Shown here piece after piece: positions 3,577 through 17,813 of a DNA stretch of 23,691 nucleotides. The stretch is from a virus: the IMG/VR virus record IMGVR_UViG_3300000553_000340, positions 1 to 23,691 of that record. The stretch is one strand, 5' to 3'. How positions within the stretch are numbered: position 1 is the stretch's first letter; the number at the start of each line of letters is the position of its first letter. The position numbers and the translations under genes are program-made. A model generated the notes under the pieces. That model saw nothing but the letters and a program-made list of their open reading frames with translations, was not told where the DNA came from and searched no databases.

Positions 3577-4284
3577 ATGACCAAAAATAAACAATCTGTT
3601 AAAAATAAACAATCTGTTAAAAATAAACAATGCGTTAAATGTAAAAAAGTTTTAACTTTAAACGATTTTCATAAAAACCGTAATGAAAAAGATGGATTAC
3701 AACGTCGATGCAAAGAATGTAAAAAAAATAATCCAGAAACTACAAAATTATATAGAATAAAAAATTTTGAAAAAAGAAAGATAGAATTAAGAAAATGGAG
3801 ACAAGAAAATAAACAAAAATATAATCAATGGACTAGATTATATAATAAAAAACCTGAAGTTAAAGAAAAAAGAAACATTTATCTTAAAAAAAGATTTAAT
3901 ACAGATTTCAGTTTTAAAATATTACACATGCTAAGAACTAGAATAAGACATGTTTTAAAAACTTCAGGTTCATCAAAAAGCGCTACCACTATTAAATTAG
4001 TTGGAATATCTGTTAAAGAATTAAAAAAATATTTAGAAAGTAAATTTAAAACTGGGATGACTTGGGAAAATTATGGTACTTATGGTTGGCATATTGATCA
4101 TATTATTCCATGTGCTAGTTTTGATTTAAATAAACCCTCAGAACAACGTAAATGCTTTCATTATACCAATTTACAGCCTTTATGGTGGTACGAGAACCTA
4201 GCTAAAGGTTCTAAGATGCCTGGTGAGTATAAGGGAGTAAGGAGTGAATATAAGGGAGTAAGGAGCGGCGAGGAGCGAGTATGA
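3577..4284 (+). CDS. HNH endonuclease with N-terminal zinc finger
   Basis: This 235-aa protein combines a zinc finger (C19xxC22 and C45xxC48) with a basic helical linker of about residues 60-130 and a C-terminal HNH domain. The HNH motifs are WHIDHIIP (H172, D174, H175), YTNLQPLW (N198) and WYENLAKG (N207). Such enzymes nick or cut DNA, and many are selfish homing endonucleases in phages. Both ends carry in-frame repeats: three 18-bp units at the start and two 21-bp units at the end. The gene overlaps the methyltransferase by 4 bp. Whether it is an independent homing gene or paired with the methyltransferase is open. Confidence 0.85.
   Translation: MTKNKQSVKNKQSVKNKQCVKCKKVLTLNDFHKNRNEKDGLQRRCKECKKNNPETTKLYRIKNFEKRKIELRKWRQENKQKYNQWTRLYNKKPEVKEKRNIYLKKRFNTDFSFKILHMLRTRIRHVLKTSGSSKSATTIKLVGISVKELKKYLESKFKTGMTWENYGTYGWHIDHIIPCASFDLNKPSEQRKCFHYTNLQPLWWYENLAKGSKMPGEYKGVRSEYKGVRSGEERV
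3583..3636 (+). repeat. Three tandem 18-bp repeats in the HNH gene 5' end
   Basis: Units at 3583-3600, 3601-3618 and 3619-3636 are in frame and encode KNKQSV, KNKQSV and KNKQCV. The third unit differs by two adjacent bases (TC to GC context around the Ser/Cys codon). The repeats extend the protein just before its first zinc-binding Cys, and look like slippage duplications. Confidence 0.85.
4225..4266 (+). repeat. Two tandem 21-bp repeats plus GC word in the HNH gene 3' end
   Basis: Units 4225-4245 and 4246-4266 differ at two bases and encode EYKGVRS twice. They run directly into GCGGCGAGGAGC (4265-4276), which matches 11 of 12 bases of the word at 815-826 and 3159-3170. The repeats lie after the HNH motifs and add a tail that domain homologues would not need. 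Confidence 0.8.
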
Positions 4285-6004: not shown

Positions 6005-6141
6005 AAGATCTAATCGAACACATTCGTGACGATTTAGATAATTTAGAAGATCTTGTTAATGAACTTCAAGATAATCAATCTGATGAAGATGATTTTGATT
6101 CATCTGTAGATGATGATTCAGATGATGATTCTGAAGAATAG
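5980..6141 (+). CDS. 53-aa highly acidic protein
   Basis: The N-terminus is MAKKPKTIEDLIEHIRDDLD, followed by an amphipathic helix, then an Asp/Ser tail of about twenty residues encoded by GATGAT-type repeats. The final 67 bp lie on the opposite strand of the terminase small subunit gene, whose Ser-rich tail uses the same DNA. The protein could be a DNA mimic or a chaperone for a basic partner, but this is only suggested by charge. The overlap with the preceding frame and the good N-terminus support it as a real gene. Confidence 0.58.
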   Translation: MAKKPKTIEDLIEHIRDDLDNLEDLVNELQDNQSDEDDFDSSVDDDSDDDSEE

Positions 6142-6698
6142 TTAACTAATACTACATCCTTCTTTTTGGGTGGTCGAGGCTTCCCGCTTCTCAATTCTTT
6201 CTGTCGGGATTTAACATCTTCCTCAAGTTCGTTGACCTCGACACCCTCTAAGAGTGGTTTATATTCTTCCATTATTTCTTTTAATCTAGCTTCTAATTCA
6301 TCTGCTGATAAATCATCAATCTTACCTGTTCTAATAATCTTTTGTTCAACATATAAGCCTGCAGCCTTGCCTCTAGCTACTTCTGCATTGATTGCAGCGG
6401 ACCAAGCACCTTTTCCCCTAGCTTCTTCTCTAAGTTTTGCTAATTCTGTTATGTGTGATCCAAAAGTTACATTAAATTGTTTTTGATATTCTTCTCTTAA
6501 CTCGCCAATATATTTTACAACTAATGGATATAGTCTTGGATTTTGTAATTCAGAAGCTCTAATACGAGCAAATTCTTTTTCATAGCCAGCAGCAATAGCA
6601 CATTGAGTTGCTGTTTTTCTGCCATAATTGCTAACCAATTCATTAGCAAATATCATTTGTTTTTCTGTCAATCTTTTAGGTAAACCCATTATTGACAA
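6075..6698 (-). CDS. terS: Terminase small subunit
   Basis: This 207-aa protein probably recognises viral DNA and loads it onto the large terminase subunit. The N-terminal region RLTEKQMIFANELVSNYGRK with TATQCAIAAGYEKEFARIRA is the helix-turn-helix of the Terminase_2 (PF03592-like) family. The central ELAKLREEARGKGAWSAAI and LYVEQKIIRTGKIDD are also typical. The last 20 residues are Ser/Glu/Asp low complexity. It is unusual in lying on the minus strand, about 5.6 kb from the large subunit, which is on plus. Start choices are MSIMG (6698) or the internal Met three codons later. Its promoter should be in 6699-6838. Confidence 0.8.
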   Translation of the reverse strand: MSIMGLPKRLTEKQMIFANELVSNYGRKTATQCAIAAGYEKEFARIRASELQNPRLYPLVVKYIGELREEYQKQFNVTFGSHITELAKLREEARGKGAWSAAINAEVARGKAAGLYVEQKIIRTGKIDDLSADELEARLKEIMEEYKPLLEGVEVNELEEDVKSRQKELRSGKPRPPKKKDVVLVNYSSESSSESSSTDESKSSSSD

Positions 6699-10576: not shown

Positions 10577-10948
10577 GTGAAACATGAGAGCAAATTTTGG
10601 CAAGAAGTTAAAGCAAAACTATCACCGCATTTAATATTAAACAGAATAGAAACATCAACCCTTTTTGGCTTTCCAGATGTAATTGCTTATACAAAACAAC
10701 ATTCATTTATAACTATAGAGCTTAAAGTATCTCAAAGTAATTCTGTTAAACTATCTCCGCATCAAATAGGTTTCCATATCTTACGACCTATTAATACGTA
10801 TATCCTCGTTAAGCATCTCGCTGCTCCCTCCTCGTCTCCAAAACTTTACAAAGGTTCTAGCGTCCAGGAACTCGCTACTCGTGGCGTGCAGCTCGAGCCA
10901 TTCTTAACCGGCTGGGAAGTGATTGTTCAGTATTTGGCTAGTCGCTAG
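10577..10948 (+). CDS. VRR-NUC domain nuclease (PD-(D/E)XK)
   Basis: This 123-aa protein is a compact VRR-NUC nuclease, related to Holliday-junction or flap-cleaving enzymes. Motifs are FGFPDVIAY (D34), FITIELKV (E48, K50) and SPHQIGF (Q63). I took GTG 10577 as the start because no in-frame ATG lies nearby. Residues about 83-107 are encoded in a GC-rich region of CTAG/CGAG words, yet KLYKGSSVQELATRGVQL still fits the family's C-terminal pattern, so the gene may be intact. Only APSSS looks like an insert. The stop lies inside the repeated word CTAGTCGCTAG (10938-10948). Confidence 0.8.
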   Translation: MKHESKFWQEVKAKLSPHLILNRIETSTLFGFPDVIAYTKQHSFITIELKVSQSNSVKLSPHQIGFHILRPINTYILVKHLAAPSSSPKLYKGSSVQELATRGVQLEPFLTGWEVIVQYLASR

Positions 10949-11116
10949 CTACACGCCACGAGCTGCTAGCTACGAGCTGCACGCTACTGGGTCCTAGCGT
11001 CAGGTCCTGGCGCCTGCCTTATTTTCGCCACATTTACATGAGGCGCAGGGGGTATGCTTCTCTCTCATATTTAGAGACATGCGACTTGATCCGAGCTACT
11101 AGCGACTAGTGGCTAG
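10857..11116. repeat. GC-rich CTAG/CGAG word cluster spanning a gene end
   Basis: Within an AT-rich genome this stretch repeats a small set of words in both orientations. CTCGTGGCGTGCAGCT (10878-10893) pairs with 15 of 16 bases of AGCTACACGCCACGAG (10947-10962). GCGTGCAGCTCG (10884-10895) is the exact inverse of CGAGCTGCACGC (10973-10984). CTAGTCGCTAG (10938-10948) is the inverse of CTAGCGACTAG (11099-11109). GGTCCTAGCGTC (10990-11001) and GGTCCTGGCGCC (11003-11014) are direct near-copies, and CTAGCGTC also lies at 10857-10864. Confidence 0.7.
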
Positions 11117-11202
11117 TAGAATAGTATTAGAACTGCTAGATCAGTTAAGAATACTGCTACTGATACTAACGCTAACCATCTCATACATTTGTCTGCGTCC
11201 AT
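11113..11202 (-). CDS. 29-aa membrane micropeptide on the minus strand
   Basis: Read on the minus strand, an excellent ribosome site (AGAAAGGAG, 11211-11219) lies 8 nt before an ATG. The frame encodes MDADKCMRWLALVSVAVFLT and then DLAVLILFY, ending in TAG inside the word CTAGTGGCTAG. One hydrophobic helix, about residues 9-28, is evident. The site is as strong as those of the best genes here, which argues against chance. It is one of only two minus-strand genes and lies in the otherwise non-coding gap upstream of the packaging genes. The function is unknown; a regulator of lysis or of membrane proteins is conceivable. Confidence 0.55.
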   Translation of the reverse strand: MDADKCMRWLALVSVAVFLTDLAVLILFY

Positions 11203-11228
11203 ATTATTTCTCCTTTCTAATTACATCC

Positions 11229-11242
11229 TATATTATCCTATA
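11229..11242 (+). promoter_or_regulatory. 14-mer shared with the early promoter
   Basis: TATATTATCCTATA here is identical to 1056-1069, where it covers the spacer end and -10 box. A second ATCCTATA lies just upstream (11225-11232). No good -35 is seen on the plus strand, so activity here is uncertain. The site is also about 30 bp upstream of the minus-strand micropeptide ATG. Confidence 0.5.
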
Positions 11243-11305
11243 CATAAGTAAATAACTTTATAGTTGTATTATTAAATAGTTCTCGAGTGTTGCATCTATG
11301 TCACG

Positions 11306-11423
11306 CGCCGCTAGCGCGGCGATGCGAGCTTCTCGTGGCGCTGCTCCAGCAGCGCGATATACTCATCACACTCGCACGCTGTTGCGTGCTCGTTAAAGCC
11401 CTCTTGTCACGCCTGGCGGCGTG
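11306..11423. repeat. Array of four phased tetraloop hairpins
   Basis: Four perfect short inverted repeats each enclose a 4-nt loop: CGCCGC-TAGC-GCGGCG (11306-11321), GCGCTGC-TCCA-GCAGCGC (11338-11355), GCACGC-TGTT-GCGTGC (11374-11389) and CACGCC-TGGC-GGCGTG (11408-11423). Their centres are 33, 35 and 34 bp apart. A hand count gives 99 G or C in the 150 bases from 11301 to 11450. No translated frame with a start codon explains this. A structured RNA, a packaging or replication site, or a terminator cluster are possible readings. Confidence 0.65.
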
Positions 11424-11467
11424 CAGCGGGCAGCGGGCACGGAGTGGCTAGGTACTACAATCAAATA

Positions 11468-11528
11468 GAATGCTTATGAATAAGAATGCTTGTCTATTAT
11501 ATCTCACGAATGCTTTCAACGAATGCTT
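11468..11528 (+). repeat. Four GAATGCTT iterons
   Basis: Exact copies of GAATGCTT start at 11468, 11484, 11508 and 11521. The last two are preceded by AC (ACGAATGCTT), and the first and last are followed by AT. An inverted partial copy, AGCATT, lies at 11544-11549. The iterons sit between the hairpin array and an AT-rich stretch, a layout common at origins and at sites bound by initiator or terminase proteins. Confidence 0.65.
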
Positions 11529-11697
11529 ATCTTAAATATTATTAGCATTAATAACAATTGCCAAAGCTAAATCTCGGAAACCTTTTCAAATTACTTAGGA
11601 TTTCTTTAACTCAATACCCCCTTTTTATTTAGGGACTCCGCAATTTTTTTCTACGCGCTAGTTTTAGACAGTCATAGCAGTAAAAATCGTTTTAGAC

Positions 11698-11726
11698 TTG
11701 CTTTTTTAGTATTAACCCCATAAAAT
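11698..11726 (+). promoter_or_regulatory. Candidate promoter for the packaging operon
   Basis: TTGCTT (11698-11703) is followed after 17 bp by TAAAAT (11721-11726), with an overlapping TATAAT at 11726-11731. The -35 matches the consensus at three positions only. A GTTTTAGAC pair (11661-11669, 11689-11697) lies just upstream and could bind an activator. It precedes the HNH and terminase genes. Confidence 0.38.
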
Positions 11727-11775: not shown

Positions 11776-12258
11776 ATGAATGATACTTATTATAAAAGAT
11801 TAGATAATAATAAAAAAAAGAGAATTAAAGAATTAGCAACTAATAGACTTTCAGAAGAAATTTTTTATATGAAAGCTAAATATGATGCAATTTCTCATAG
11901 AGAAAAATCTAAAGAAAAAGATAGATCCTATATGAAATCAAAAGATAAATATAAATGTTATTTTTCTTGGGAAGAATTTTTAAAAATATGGGAAGAACAT
12001 AAAAAGACATATGGTGGTTTAATATGTGCAATAACAGGAGAAACAATGACTCATATTGGATTAAACCCCAAAGGAACAAAAAAATATTCAAGGAATTGGA
12101 ATAATATTAGTATAGATAAATTAAATCCAGACAAACCATATACTTTAGAAAATATTATATTTGTTACATGGAAAATTAATAAAGCAAAAAATGATCTACC
12201 TATAAAATATTTAAAAAGAATATTAGAATTATATAATGAAAAATTTAAATTAAATTAA
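11776..12258 (+). CDS. HNH endonuclease next to the terminase
   Basis: This 160-aa protein has a lysine-rich helical N-terminal half and a C-terminal HNH-type motif set: ICAITGETM (C84), ISIDKLNPDKPYTLENIIFV (D114, N126) and WKINKAKNDL (N135, D140). I recall this CxITG...SID(R/K)...Y..EN...W..N..K arrangement from phage HNH proteins encoded beside terminases, where an HNH enzyme helps the large subunit cut or mature DNA. It ends one base before terL. The second His of the classic motif is not obvious, so it is a divergent member. A homing role is the alternative. Confidence 0.72.
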   Translation: MNDTYYKRLDNNKKKRIKELATNRLSEEIFYMKAKYDAISHREKSKEKDRSYMKSKDKYKCYFSWEEFLKIWEEHKKTYGGLICAITGETMTHIGLNPKGTKKYSRNWNNISIDKLNPDKPYTLENIIFVTWKINKAKNDLPIKYLKRILELYNEKFKLN

Positions 12259-12259
12259 A

Positions 12260-13732
12260 ATGAAAATTGATATAGAGAAGTTAAGAAATTTACCACCTGA
12301 TATTAGGAAGGATGCTTTAAAACTATATATTCAATCTATACAAAAAAAGAAAGAAGAAACAGCTCATTCAGATTTCCTTTCTTTTGTTAAACATGTATGG
12401 CCAGAATTTATTGAAGGCTATCATCATAAAAAGATTGCAAAGAAATTTAATGAACTAGCTAAAGGTAAAATAAAAAGGCTTATTGTTAATATGCCACCAA
12501 GACATACAAAGTCTGAGTTCGCTTCGTTCTTGTTTCCCGCTTGGATGATTGGGCAACGACCTAACTTGAAGATTATTCAAACGACCCACACAGGCGAACT
12601 GGCTGTTAGATTTGGTCGTAAGACTAAAACATTAATTGATAGTGAAGATTATCAAAAGATATTTAAAACAAAACTAAGAGAAGATTCACAAGCAGCGGGC
12701 AGATGGGAAACAGAACAAGGTGGCGAGTATTTCGCAGCGGGTGTTGGTGGAGCTATTACTGGTCGAGGTGCTGATTTATTAATTATTGACGATCCACATT
12801 CTGAACAAGATGCATTAAGTTTACCTGCATTAGAACGTGCATATGAATGGTATACCTCTGGTCCTCGTCAACGTTTACAACCAGGTGGAATGATTGTGGT
12901 TGTTATGACCAGATGGAATACAAAAGATTTAACTGGAATGTTATTACAATCATCAGGAGATGCTAAAGCTGATAAATGGGAACTTGTAGAATTTCCTGCA
13001 ATCTTACCTTCAAATAAACCTGTATGGCCACAGTATTGGAAGTTAGAAGAATTAGAAGCTGTTAAAGCTTCTGTAAGTATTCAAAAATGGAATGCACAAT
13101 GGATGCAAAATCCAACATCAGAAGAAGGTGCAATTATAAAACGAGAGTGGTGGCGTAAATGGGAATATGAACAGATTCCACCTTTAGAACATGTAATACA
13201 ATCTTATGATACGGCATTCATGAAAAAAGAAACAGCCGACTATTCTGCTATCACAACATGGGGAATATTTTATGCTGATGAAGATTCTGGTCCACAATTA
13301 ATATTGCTTGATGCACATAAAGGTAGATACGAGTTTCCAGAACTAAGACGTATTGCATATGAACAGTTTATATATTGGAATCCTGAAACAGTTTTAATTG
13401 AAGGTAAAGCTTCTGGATTACCTTTAACTTATGAATTACGTAAAATGGGAATACCAGTTATCAACTTTACACCAAGCAAAGGAAATGATAAGCATGCAAG
13501 AGTTAACAGTGTTGCACCTCTATTTGAGAGCGGTTGCATATGGGCGCCCACTCATAAAGAATTTGCTCAAAAGGTAATAGAGGAATGCGCAGCTTTCCCT
13601 TATGGGGAAAACGATGACTTGGTAGATTCTACGACGCAAGCTCTTATGAGATTTCGTCAAGGTGGATTTATTGAACATCCTGAAGATTATCGAGATGAGC
13701 CATTACCTCATATCGAAAGAAACTATTATTAA
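12260..13732 (+). CDS. terL: Terminase large subunit
   Basis: This 490-aa motor drives DNA into the procapsid and cuts the concatemer. The N-terminal ATPase has a Walker A variant MPPRHTKS (78-85), Walker B LLIIDD (173-178) with DP following, and the coupling motif VVMTRW (T217). The RNase H-like nuclease carries SYDTAF (D317), VLIEGKASG (E381) and an acidic NDDLVD cluster (451-456). The length is normal and all motifs are intact. It follows the HNH gene by one base. The small subunit is distant and on the other strand, which is unusual. Which packaging mode is used (cos, pac or terminal repeats) cannot be told from sequence alone. Confidence 0.93.
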   Translation: MKIDIEKLRNLPPDIRKDALKLYIQSIQKKKEETAHSDFLSFVKHVWPEFIEGYHHKKIAKKFNELAKGKIKRLIVNMPPRHTKSEFASFLFPAWMIGQRPNLKIIQTTHTGELAVRFGRKTKTLIDSEDYQKIFKTKLREDSQAAGRWETEQGGEYFAAGVGGAITGRGADLLIIDDPHSEQDALSLPALERAYEWYTSGPRQRLQPGGMIVVVMTRWNTKDLTGMLLQSSGDAKADKWELVEFPAILPSNKPVWPQYWKLEELEAVKASVSIQKWNAQWMQNPTSEEGAIIKREWWRKWEYEQIPPLEHVIQSYDTAFMKKETADYSAITTWGIFYADEDSGPQLILLDAHKGRYEFPELRRIAYEQFIYWNPETVLIEGKASGLPLTYELRKMGIPVINFTPSKGNDKHARVNSVAPLFESGCIWAPTHKEFAQKVIEECAAFPYGENDDLVDSTTQALMRFRQGGFIEHPEDYRDEPLPHIERNYY

Positions 13733-14797: not shown

Positions 14798-17270
14798 ATC
14801 ATTACCCAACATTACACCAGGTGATGGATTAACAGTTCCAACTGCTATTGATTTAAATCAACCATCAACCACAATTTCACAATCAGGACCAGTTGATGTA
14901 ACTGAAAATGAAGATGGTAGTGCTGATGTTAATATAGGACCAGAAGTTGCTCCTCAACAACAATCACAAAATCATTTTGATAATTTAGCTGAATTATTAG
15001 ATGATAAAGTATTAGGTCCTATTGGATCAGAACTTACAGATGATTTTGAACAATATAAAACATCACGTCAAGATTGGGAAAAGGCTTATACCGATGGATT
15101 AGATTTATTAGGATTTAAATATGAAAAAAGAACTGAACCTTTTAAAGGTGCATCGGGTGCAACTCACCCAGTATTAGCAGAAGCTGTTACACAATTCCAA
15201 GCACAAGCGTATAAAGAATTATTACCAGCAGAAGGACCAGTTAGAACTCAGATTATAGGAGCGGTCAACACGCAACGAGAACAAGAAGCTGGTCGTGTTA
15301 AAGAATTTATGAATTATCAAATTATGGATGTCATGAAAGAATATGAACCAGAGTTTGATCAAATGTTATTTTATTTACCATTATCAGGATCAACATTTAA
15401 AAAAGTTTACTATGATGAATTATTAGGAAGACCTGTTTCTAAATTTGTACCAGCAGAAGAACTTGTAGTTCCTTATTCTGCAACTTCATTAGAAGACGCT
15501 GAAGCAGTTGTTCACATTATTAAAATTTCTGAGAATGATTTGCGCAAACAACAAGTATCTGGATTTTATAGAGATGTAGATTTATCAGGACCACCAGAAG
15601 GAACAGAAACAGATTTACAAAAAAAACAAAATGAAATTGAAGGTATAAGAAAAACTACAGGCAATAATATGTATACTCTATTAGAGTTTCATACATATTT
15701 AGATATTGAAGGTTTTGAAGATAAAGATCAAAATGGTGAGCCTACTGAAATTAAATTACCATACATTGTAACTATCGAGGAAGATTCAAGAGAAGTATTA
15801 TCTATTAGACGTAACTGGCAACCAGATGATGTTAAAAAAGAAAAGATACAATACTTTGTTCATTTTAAATTTTTACCAGGATTAGGTTTTTATGGATTTG
15901 GTTTAATTCATATGATTGGTGGATTATCACGTACAGCTACATCTGCTTTAAGACAATTACTCGACGCTGGAACCTTAGCTAACTTACCAGCGGGATTCAA
16001 GCAACGAGGAATTAGAGTTAGAGATGATGCACAACCAATTCAACCAGGTGAATTTAGAGATGTAGATGCACCTAATGGAAATATTAAAGATTCATTTATG
16101 ATGTTACCATTTAAAGAACCTTCTCAAACATTATTATCATTAATGGGAACTGTTGTACAAGCGGGTCAAAGATTTGCTTCAATTGCTGATATGCAAGTTG
16201 GAGATGCTAATCAACAAGCTCCAGTTGGAACAACTGTTGCATTATTGGAACGAGGATCAAGAGTTATGTCTTCAATCCATAAAAGAATATATGCAGCTTT
16301 GAAACAAGAGTTTAATGCATTAGCTAGATTATTTAGAATTTATTTACCACCAGTATATCCTTATGACGTGGTTGGAGGAGCGAGACAAATTAAACAAGCT
16401 GACTTTAATGATAATGTTGCAGTCATTCCAGTTGCTGATCCAAATATATTTAGTCAGACTCAAAGAATATCTTTAGCACAAACTGAAATGCAACTTGCAG
16501 CATCTAACCCAGCTATGCATAACCAATATCAAGTTTATAGAAATATGTATGAAGCATTAGGAGTTAAAGATATTGATAAAATATTAATTCAGCCACAACC
16601 CCCACAACCAAAGGATCCTGCTTTAGAACATATTGCGGCTTTAGCAGGACAGCAATTTCAAGCTTTTCCAAATCAAGATCATAGAGCACACATTACTGCT
16701 CATTTAAATTTTATGGCAACTAATATTGCTAAGAATGCACCAATCGTTACTGCATCATTAGAAAAAAATATATTTGAACATATTTCTTTAATGGCTCAAG
16801 AACATACACAATTAGAATTTGCTAGAGAATTACAACAAATGAAAATGTTACAACAACAACTTCAACAAATGCAAACTTCTGGTCAAATAAATCCACAAGT
16901 AATTCAACAAGTACAATCTCAAGTAAATAGTTTAAGTATGACTATTGAATCTAGGAAAGCACATATCATTGCTGATGCTATGGAAGAATTTGCTAAAGAG
17001 GAACAAAAAATAGCAGGTCAGTTTGGTAATGATCCAATAGCTCAACTTAAAGCTAGAGAATTAGATTTAATGGCTCAAGAAAATGATAGAAAACGAACAG
17101 AAGGCGAGCAATCTCATAATTTAAATAAAATGAAGGTGCTTATGAATCAAAAAGTACATGACGAAAAACTAGACCAAAATGAGCATTTAGCTAAGATGAG
17201 AGCCGATACTTCTATTGAAAAGACTGTATTAAGTAAGGTATTAAATCCTAAGGTTGAAAAACATCAATAA
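14781..17270 (+). CDS. Portal (head-tail connector) protein
   Basis: This 829-aa protein would form the dodecameric ring through which DNA enters and leaves the head. The N-terminal 60 residues are variable and acidic; the core begins around YKTSRQDWEKAYTDGLDLLG. The wing and stem region includes PLSGSTFKKVYYDELLGRPV and LPGLGFYGFGLIHMIGGLSR, hallmarks of large portals seen in podovirus-like and related marine phages. A Gln-rich helical barrel and coiled coil (about residues 660-770) follows, as in P22-type portals. Length is well above the roughly 500 residues of lambda or HK97 portals. It follows terL by one gene, as expected. The family subtype is uncertain. Confidence 0.88.
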   Translation: MATIDKSLPNITPGDGLTVPTAIDLNQPSTTISQSGPVDVTENEDGSADVNIGPEVAPQQQSQNHFDNLAELLDDKVLGPIGSELTDDFEQYKTSRQDWEKAYTDGLDLLGFKYEKRTEPFKGASGATHPVLAEAVTQFQAQAYKELLPAEGPVRTQIIGAVNTQREQEAGRVKEFMNYQIMDVMKEYEPEFDQMLFYLPLSGSTFKKVYYDELLGRPVSKFVPAEELVVPYSATSLEDAEAVVHIIKISENDLRKQQVSGFYRDVDLSGPPEGTETDLQKKQNEIEGIRKTTGNNMYTLLEFHTYLDIEGFEDKDQNGEPTEIKLPYIVTIEEDSREVLSIRRNWQPDDVKKEKIQYFVHFKFLPGLGFYGFGLIHMIGGLSRTATSALRQLLDAGTLANLPAGFKQRGIRVRDDAQPIQPGEFRDVDAPNGNIKDSFMMLPFKEPSQTLLSLMGTVVQAGQRFASIADMQVGDANQQAPVGTTVALLERGSRVMSSIHKRIYAALKQEFNALARLFRIYLPPVYPYDVVGGARQIKQADFNDNVAVIPVADPNIFSQTQRISLAQTEMQLAASNPAMHNQYQVYRNMYEALGVKDIDKILIQPQPPQPKDPALEHIAALAGQQFQAFPNQDHRAHITAHLNFMATNIAKNAPIVTASLEKNIFEHISLMAQEHTQLEFARELQQMKMLQQQLQQMQTSGQINPQVIQQVQSQVNSLSMTIESRKAHIIADAMEEFAKEEQKIAGQFGNDPIAQLKARELDLMAQENDRKRTEGEQSHNLNKMKVLMNQKVHDEKLDQNEHLAKMRADTSIEKTVLSKVLNPKVEKHQ

Positions 17271-17287: not shown

Positions 17288-17440
17288 ATGGATAAAAAAC
17301 AAGCTAAAATTAAAACAGTAATGAAAGAGTTTAAAGCTGGTAAATTGCATTCAGGTAAATCTAAAAAGATTGTAAAAAATCCTAAACAAGCAATTGCTAT
17401 AGCAATCTCTGAAAGCAAAAAATCAAGCAAAAGGAAATAA
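17288..17440 (+). CDS. DUF6496-like small basic protein (50 aa)
   Basis: The sequence has VMKEFKAGKLHSGKSKK then NPKQAIAIAISESKK, which I recall as the DUF6496 signature found in many bacteria and phages. It is highly basic with one helix. No function is established. It lies 17 bp after the portal and one base before the next gene, within the head operon. A role in DNA binding during packaging or early infection would fit the charge, but is not shown. Confidence 0.75.
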   Translation: MDKKQAKIKTVMKEFKAGKLHSGKSKKIVKNPKQAIAIAISESKKSSKRK

Positions 17441-17441
17441 T

Positions 17442-17813
17442 ATGTCTAATCCAAAAGGAAATGAAAAAATAAGATCAGTAGCACAAAAACATAAAAATAA
17501 AAAAATGCCAGAAGCAATTGGAATGGCAAGAAAATTTTTAGAAGATCCAGCTAAACATATTGGTGTTGCAATAGCTGAAGGTAAAAGAACTAAAGGATAT
17601 GGTGTTGAAGGTGAAAAAACTTATTCTAAAAATAATTCATTAAGAGATCCTAATTCTCATGAAGTAGATTTTTCTGAATTTACAAATGAAGATGGACACT
17701 TAAAAGGTGGTATCGATGTTGAAATGACTGGACCACAAGAAACAGCTGAAGAAAAAGTTCGTGGTCAAGGACGAATGTTACCTGAGAAAAGAAAAACTGC
17801 GAAATGGTTCTAA
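17442..17813 (+). CDS. Conserved hypothetical head-module protein (123 aa)
   Basis: It starts MSNPKGNEKIRSVAQKHKNK with a basic N-terminal third and an acidic middle including SHEVDFSEFTNEDGH. The end carries GQGRMLPEKRKTAKWF. I do not recognise a domain, although the N-terminal RSVAQKHKNKKMPEAIGMAR resembles other small marine-phage proteins next to the DUF6496-like gene. No transmembrane segment is visible. It precedes the holin gene by 3 bp and probably shares its transcript. Confidence 0.66.
   Translation: MSNPKGNEKIRSVAQKHKNKKMPEAIGMARKFLEDPAKHIGVAIAEGKRTKGYGVEGEKTYSKNNSLRDPNSHEVDFSEFTNEDGHLKGGIDVEMTGPQETAEEKVRGQGRMLPEKRKTAKWF

Follow-up and report, generated by a model that had tools for sequence, protein, structure and literature searches.

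The window, by which we mean the whole stretch of DNA analysed here, is a linear virus record of 23,691 bp (IMGVR_UViG_3300000553_000340) with a GC content of 32%. Besides a SNF2 helicase, a portal and a major capsid protein, it encodes TerS (6075-6698, minus strand), a short nuclease-like gene ("VRR-like", 10577-10948, rightward) that matches only phrog_2165 and, weakly, Hjc, a free-standing HNH gene (11776-12258), and the terminase large subunit TerL (12260-13732, plus strand), which served as the anchor for all comparisons. The TerL protein shares 72.7% identity with that of Pelagibacter phage HTVC027P and about 60% with those of HTVC023P and the lake phage DSL-LC04. Judged from these identities, the window phage is a relative of HTVC023P-type phages, and a freshwater relative of SAR11-infecting phages. 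No DNA similarity of the window to phage records was found, nor did a search by sequence yield a solved structure for TerL. For comparison, 80 terL loci and further related contigs were taken from IMG/VR, and isolates from GenBank.

Four perfect hairpins lie upstream of the HNH and terL genes, namely hairpin 1 (11306-11321, CGCCGC-TAGC-GCGGCG), hairpin 2 (11338-11355, GCGCTGC-TCCA-GCAGCGC), hairpin 3 (11374-11389, GCACGC-TGTT-GCGTGC) and hairpin 4 (11408-11423, CACGCC-TGGC-GGCGTG). They had been proposed from the letters of the DNA as four perfect hairpins in a GC-rich island, and both parts of this description hold, with stems of 6, 7, 6 and 6 bp and a GC content of 66% in 11301-11450 compared to 32% in the window. 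Hairpin 4 is further enclosed by an outer stem (11398-11431), in which GCCC at 11398-11401 pairs with GGGC at 11428-11431 (GCCGG/CCGGC in L004-L007), and DNA folding adds a weaker fifth stem-loop at 11324-11336 (GCGAG-CTT-CTCGT). Within the 23.7 kb, clustered GC-rich perfect hairpins occur only at 11306-11423. Among 3000 dinucleotide shuffles of 11301-11450, 2225 contained no hairpin, 699 one, 74 two, 2 three and none four, and if only 4-nt loops were counted no shuffle exceeded two. Also when folded as RNA, the region 11280-11460 is more stable than shuffled controls, as had been anticipated (z -3.05 on the plus and -2.45 on the minus strand), and in single-stranded DNA folding of 11295-11435 (z -2.32 and -2.85, respectively) the four hairpins appear separately.

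The HNH gene sits exactly before the terL start codon. It is absent in L004-L008, and the same position upstream of terL is occupied in L037. From this distribution it is most readily read as a mobile endonuclease gene that was inserted exactly before terL in two lineages, and we rejected it, as an insertion missing in the former and present in the latter, as a part of the hairpin element.

To the left of the hairpins, the last rightward gene ends at 10948 and has a terminator-like site of its own at 11001-11025. It is followed by a leftward ORF of 29 amino acids (MDADKCMRWLALVSVAVFLTDLAVLILFY, 11113-11202, minus strand) that carries an AGGAG ribosome-binding site and is identical in L006, and by a putative leftward promoter (TAGGATAATATAGGAT on the minus strand, 11222-11243), which is conserved in relatives and was left unscored by a consensus scan. 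Directly before hairpin 1 stands the motif GTGTTGCA-NNN-ATGTCAC (11287-11304, plus strand). To the right, box 1 (AGGTACTACA, 11450-11459), the counterpart of the family's AGAGGTCCCA, the box 2 region (CCCCCTTTTTATTTAGGGACTCC, 11615-11639), the counterpart of CCCCTTTTTTAAAAAGGGGTCCC, and two late-promoter-like repeats (TTTTAGAC...TAAAAAT and TTTTAGAC...CCATAAAAT, 11662-11726), the motif of which is found family-wide, all lie on the plus strand. Four AATGCTT repeats (11469-11528, starting at 11469, 11485, 11509 and 11522, plus strand) also adjoin the island in L004, L005, L007 and L010, i.e. in the window clade only; they are at most suggestive of origin-like iterons or an operator.

Distribution and covariation of the hairpin islands

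All 1.54 Mb of mostly related contigs were scanned for at least three GC-rich perfect hairpins spaced by less than 120 nt. Apart from one in L091, a distant GC-rich contig, every cluster lies immediately upstream of terL or, where a contig ends, at the corresponding position. The carriers are the window, L004-L008, L010, L085, L099, L103, L104 and their duplicates, and they fall into two phage clades, that of the window and that of L085/L099/L103/L104. Most relatives have no island and carry a single hairpin instead. The folding z-scores are weak for some islands (L037, L050, L094).

In nearly all islands with enough flanking DNA, the left-hand gene or promoter-like sequence points to the left (L005 keeps only the promoter-like sequence), and the island therefore sits between divergent transcription units. 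The promoters in question were inferred from repeated motifs, namely TAGGATAATATAGGAT leftward and TTTAGAC...TAAAAT rightward; the consensus promoter scan remained at chance level and gave no match above chance reading into the island. A dyad, GTGCGACATNATGTCGCAGGC or close variants of it, adjoins the leftward promoter-like sequence in L004 (1459-1479), L007 (926-946), L016, L037, L041, L050 and L099.

The window, L004, L005 and L007 can be aligned throughout the island. The homologues of hairpin 1 in L005 and L007 have the loop TAAC; the stem of hairpin 2 is identical in L004, L005 and L007, where its loop is TGGA, the reverse complement of TCCA; and hairpin 3 reads GCGC-TGTT-GCGC in the relatives, a paired 2-bp difference (insertion) in both arms. 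Hairpin 4 occurs with four stems (CACGCC, CAACGC and CGCCGC, and GGCGCGC in the other clade) in five sequence types, in which 31 of 31 cells are paired and five of seven pairs are changed on both sides with no G-U cell (0/500 shuffles), counts that lean toward structure because the five sequences were picked for being hairpins and aligned on their loops. The compensatory changes that an alignment of relatives was expected to reveal are hence present.

The spacing behaved differently. A constant distance of about 34 bp had been claimed, and the centre distances in the window are indeed 33, 35 and 34 bp, but they are not conserved. In L005 and L007 they are 33, 24 and 33, L004 lacks hairpin 1, and the distances in L006 are irregular. 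Since close relatives have 33/24/33, the regularity in the window is, by this comparison, a coincidence, and we rejected it as a functional feature.

From our point of view, the claim that it is the structure rather than the sequence that is kept is supported: the paired stem changes, the strict location at terL and the one-sided loop class described below speak for it. We add two reservations, namely that the spacing varies and that template switching can also make paired changes without any selection. The latter process leads to a different explanation of the islands altogether, namely that quasi-palindromes in GC-rich non-coding DNA are perfected and swapped by strand-specific template switching and that the hairpins are functionless. 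Since stable hairpins on one of the strands are favoured in template switching, the process would also yield one-sided GNA/GNNA loops and near-perfect pairing (quasi-palindrome correction). Such a neutral turnover would accommodate the fast change in hairpin number (3-8 per island), the paired 2-bp differences in hairpin 3, the inverted loops TCCA/TGGA and the duplicate hairpins held by L006. It does not readily explain why the islands keep strictly to terL in two clades, why a GC content of 66% is maintained in genomes of 32% GC, and why hairpins repeatedly abut the same two motifs, and we regard it as rather unlikely. The abutting motifs are GTGTTGCA-NNN-ATGTCAC, which runs straight into a hairpin in seven cases, and AGGTTGTGC, which does so in eight, each time with different stems; in L032, L037, L085, L099 and L104 the former is directly followed by a hairpin with a differing stem.

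With an A/T-rich centre, GTGTTGCA-WWW-ATGTCAC is found repeatedly close to terL in several phage groups that are unrelated, and also at other places in their genomes (L026, L032, L037, L041, L050, L060, L082, L083, L085-L087, L091-L093, L096, L099, L104-L106 and others). In bacterial genomes it is matched no more often than by chance, and the centres of these matches are random. As a host site, the motif GTGTTGCANNNATGTCACGC was rejected, since bacterial and archaeal genomes totalling 257 Gb gave 17 matches, compared to about 30 estimated by chance, which argues against a host-wide element.

Loop class and strand of the island hairpins

Across the islands, 36 hairpins have loops of 3-4 nt, and 23 of them have a C(GNA)G or C(GNNA)G loop when read on the minus strand, i.e. 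the strand opposite terL, compared to none of 36 on the plus strand and to 6.8% (minus) and 5.4% (plus) in shuffled islands, although counts across loci are non-independent owing to common descent. A C-G pair closes the loop in 34 of the 36, and six of the 12 distinct loop types belong to this class (p 4e-5). In the window, only hairpins 1 and 4 have such loops, C(GCTA)G and C(GCCA)G on the minus strand, and hairpins 2 and 3 are not of the GNNA type. In RNA tetraloops, GNRA would be expected; the four GNNA types found (GCTA, GCCA, GTTA and GTCA) all have a pyrimidine as third base, and none equals an RNA GNRA loop. The island stems further contain hardly any wobbles (2 G-T vs 2 A-C).

GNA and GNNA loops closed by G-C pairs are known as extraordinarily stable DNA mini-hairpins (PMC4686876), and in the early promoters of phage N4 a C:G closing pair together with a loop 5'G and 3'A is needed for supercoil-driven extrusion, while the stem is partly free (PMC4496689). 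Because the loop class is restricted to the minus strand, GNRA loops are missing and the stems are nearly free of G-U pairs, the sequences of the islands point to a DNA structure, with the reservation that an identical mark would be left, in the absence of any function, by strand-specific template switching.

The possibility raised originally, that the hairpins belong to a small structured non-coding RNA that titrates a protein, is by comparison very improbable for this island. Its multi-stem fold does beat shuffled sequences on both strands. Against it stand the lack of any promoter-like match above chance into the island, the unconserved number and spacing of the stems, the absence of G-U pairs, the DNA-type tetraloops and the promoter-like DNA on both sides, and in a search of Rfam 15 neither the window nor the terL-upstream regions of 11 relatives gave a match above the gathering score. 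In HTVC027P, Rfam matched a Flavobacterium-1 RNA (RF02976, L117 3280-3400 minus, 90 bits, E 7e-16).

We prefer, tentatively, to see the island as a cis-acting array of DNA mini-hairpins between divergent transcription units. Several small hairpins would form on one strand, the one complementary to terL, when the DNA between the leftward unit and the rightward late (terL) unit becomes underwound through divergent transcription or replication. In the cell, the hairpins might extrude, or form in exposed single strands, and a protein might then read them for a local control of the locus, be it replication start, packaging or late transcription. What counts against such a DNA array is that islands are absent in most relatives, the single hairpin of which behaves as RNA.

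The single hairpin of relatives and the frame upstream of terL

In most relatives (76-81% TerL identity), a rightward gene lies upstream, and one hairpin separates the stop codon of this gene from box 1 (AGAGGTCCC). In 24 of these single-hairpin relatives, an 11-bp stem directly follows the upstream stop codon, with 96.6% of the cells paired and 34 two-sided cells compared to 11.6 in shuffles (0/500). RNAalifold recovers this helix unprompted, and the wobbles on the terL strand, counted from the pair tables, amount to 21 G-U versus 0 A-C cells in 7 columns. Covariation together with a tolerance of sense-strand G-U is thus seen in the single-hairpin relatives, whereas the islands covary without G-U. 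Because it covaries and tolerates only sense-strand G-U, it is well supported by these alignments that the single hairpin acts as RNA and that its pairing is kept in the sense RNA. A T-run follows the hairpin in L018, L054 and L080, and in L019 a terminator lies just behind box 1. The family hence does carry an RNA terminator-like hairpin at this place, of which the island might be an expansion.

These observations lend themselves to an RNA-level reading of the island as well: as an expanded terminator-like hairpin it would act as an insulator, the hairpins of which stop, slow or trim rightward transcripts before the late terL promoter. The covariation in the 24 relatives, the sense-RNA wobbles, the T-runs and the terminator just mentioned and a box 1 that in most single-hairpin relatives keeps a near-constant position at -168 to -175 from terL would all fit. 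The island itself fits less well, as its hairpins have no T-tract on either strand and no downstream excess of T (p 0.58), lie between divergent promoter-like sequences, show almost no wobbles and have DNA-type loops, and as the upstream rightward gene already has its own terminator-like site. We consider an insulator the main rival of the DNA array, possible but doubtful. Intrinsic terminators within the island were rejected for lack of T-tracts, the only such site nearby being at 11001-11016.

From HTVC027P to the freshwater group, box 1 is followed upstream of terL by 60-80 nt of AT-rich DNA containing CCCCTTTTTTAAAA, then by box 2 (GGGGTCCC) and by TTGATTTAGAC...TAAAAT, the latter being a putative late promoter. 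HTVC027P lacks a gene for an RNA polymerase and relies on the enzyme of its host (PMC12753301). In all terL loci, two GGTCCC-like boxes flank the AT-rich stretch at a near-fixed distance of about -170 and -110 from terL. Together with the TTGATTTAGAC...TAAAAT motif, the boxes are a candidate late control or packaging site.

Degenerate heptad units (GCTTGNN), in runs of about 10-25, cover the 3' end of the VRR-like gene and continue into the DNA that follows. A period of 7 was found in 289 of 26,800 windows of 120 nt at S > 4.5, compared to 0-9 for any other period that is not a multiple of 3. The copy in our window lies at 10861-11041, and others are found in L046 (661-961), L026 (3211-3511), L038 (331-601), L117 (1981-2221) and further contigs. 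In the complete HTVC027P, such arrays are restricted to two stretches of the terS-terL interval, 16441-16720 and 17321-17480; they are missing from HTVC023P, and 023Pt_psg01 has no more than a weak one. DSL-LC04 has a GC-rich heptad version before terL (L120 5611-5821). A 7-nt period also occurs in the gene at 3577-4284, which ends (4220-4284) in a 21-nt tandem repeat (7 aa, EYKGVRS). The ParB(omega) sites of plasmid pSM19035 consist of 7-bp repeats without spacers (PMC9499535), and the heptad arrays bear a resemblance only to these sites. It seems unlikely, although conceivable, that the strand-specific C(GNA)G/C(GNNA)G arrays and the (GCTTGNN)n arrays of the same terS-terL interval constitute a new type of structure-read DNA signal for replication, packaging or late-gene control in what is an abundant family of relatives of SAR11 phages.

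One could also imagine that hairpins, boxes 1 and 2 and heptad arrays are parts of a packaging-initiation region (pac or cos) bound by the small terminase. The position between TerS and TerL, the two GGGWCCC-like boxes, the distance of which from terL hardly varies within the family, the restriction of the heptad arrays in HTVC027P to the terS-terL interval and the similarity of TerS to the SPP1/SF6 type (E 0.0033), in which the pac region holds direct repeats (PMC4737164), are in line with this idea. However, the ends of IMG/VR contigs are scattered over -220 to -440 with no fixed point, so that a physical genome end at the island was rejected, and the pac site of SPP1 overlaps the start of terS (PMC4737164), which is 5.5 kb away here. 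Packaging initiation is, from our point of view, a very unlikely function of the region. We know of no pac site of which hairpins are a part. GC skew likewise gave no indication of an origin, the complete relatives HTVC027P, HTVC023P and 023Pt_psg01 showing no switch at terL. Because most relatives have no island and keep one hairpin, we can further conclude that the island in its present form does not serve as an essential origin or packaging site.

Relation to known hairpin systems

Few cases are known in which a protein reads DNA hairpins inside a double-stranded phage genome, the N4 promoters being the foremost, in which the transcription start lies at a distance of about 11 nt from the loop. 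The early promoters of the N4 vRNAP (PMC4496689) resemble the island in their short GC-rich hairpins with a partly free stem, a 5'G/3'A loop closed by C:G, and the restriction to one strand; if the loop strand served as template, transcription would run toward terL. On that strand, 23 of the 36 island hairpins have the N4-type closing pair and loop. The island differs from N4 in its tandem hairpins, the mixture of tri- and tetraloops, the location before the terminase gene rather than at the genome end and the lack of a conserved start site. A search with PF00940, which need not detect N4 vRNAP, matched neither the window nor any of 7 relatives, but it did not match the control genomes either, and the long virion proteins had no polymerase match. 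The likeness would thus lie in the fold and the loop rule, and we do not claim that the island is such a promoter.

The GNA/GNNA mini-hairpins described by Hirao and Yoshizawa (PMC4686876) have the same loop class with G-C pairs, yet they represent a biophysical class and not a genomic element, whereas the island is an array biased to one strand. The intrinsic (rho-independent) terminators found in phage operons are similar as GC-rich hairpins at a transcription-unit boundary, and several relatives have true ones, but the island has no U-tract and lies between divergent units. REP/BIME elements are comparable in that they, too, are short GC-rich palindromes with an orientation, lie in non-coding DNA, turn over quickly and occur as module-like copies. 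Unlike these elements, which are dispersed over many intergenic spaces, the island is confined to one locus, with clusters only upstream of terL (bar L091), and no RAYT/tyrosine transposase was found among the window proteins examined. The pac region of SPP1/SF6, finally, is comparable as non-coding DNA near terminase genes with direct repeats and an SPP1-like TerS, but it overlaps terS and has no hairpin array.

Overall, RNA-level selection, as seen in the single-hairpin relatives, and DNA-level structure, as seen in the islands, seem to share one place in one phage family. A fast-evolving array in which one strand keeps to one loop rule, found in relatives of SAR11 phages that are in culture, would allow a test of whether control by extruded DNA hairpins is more widespread.
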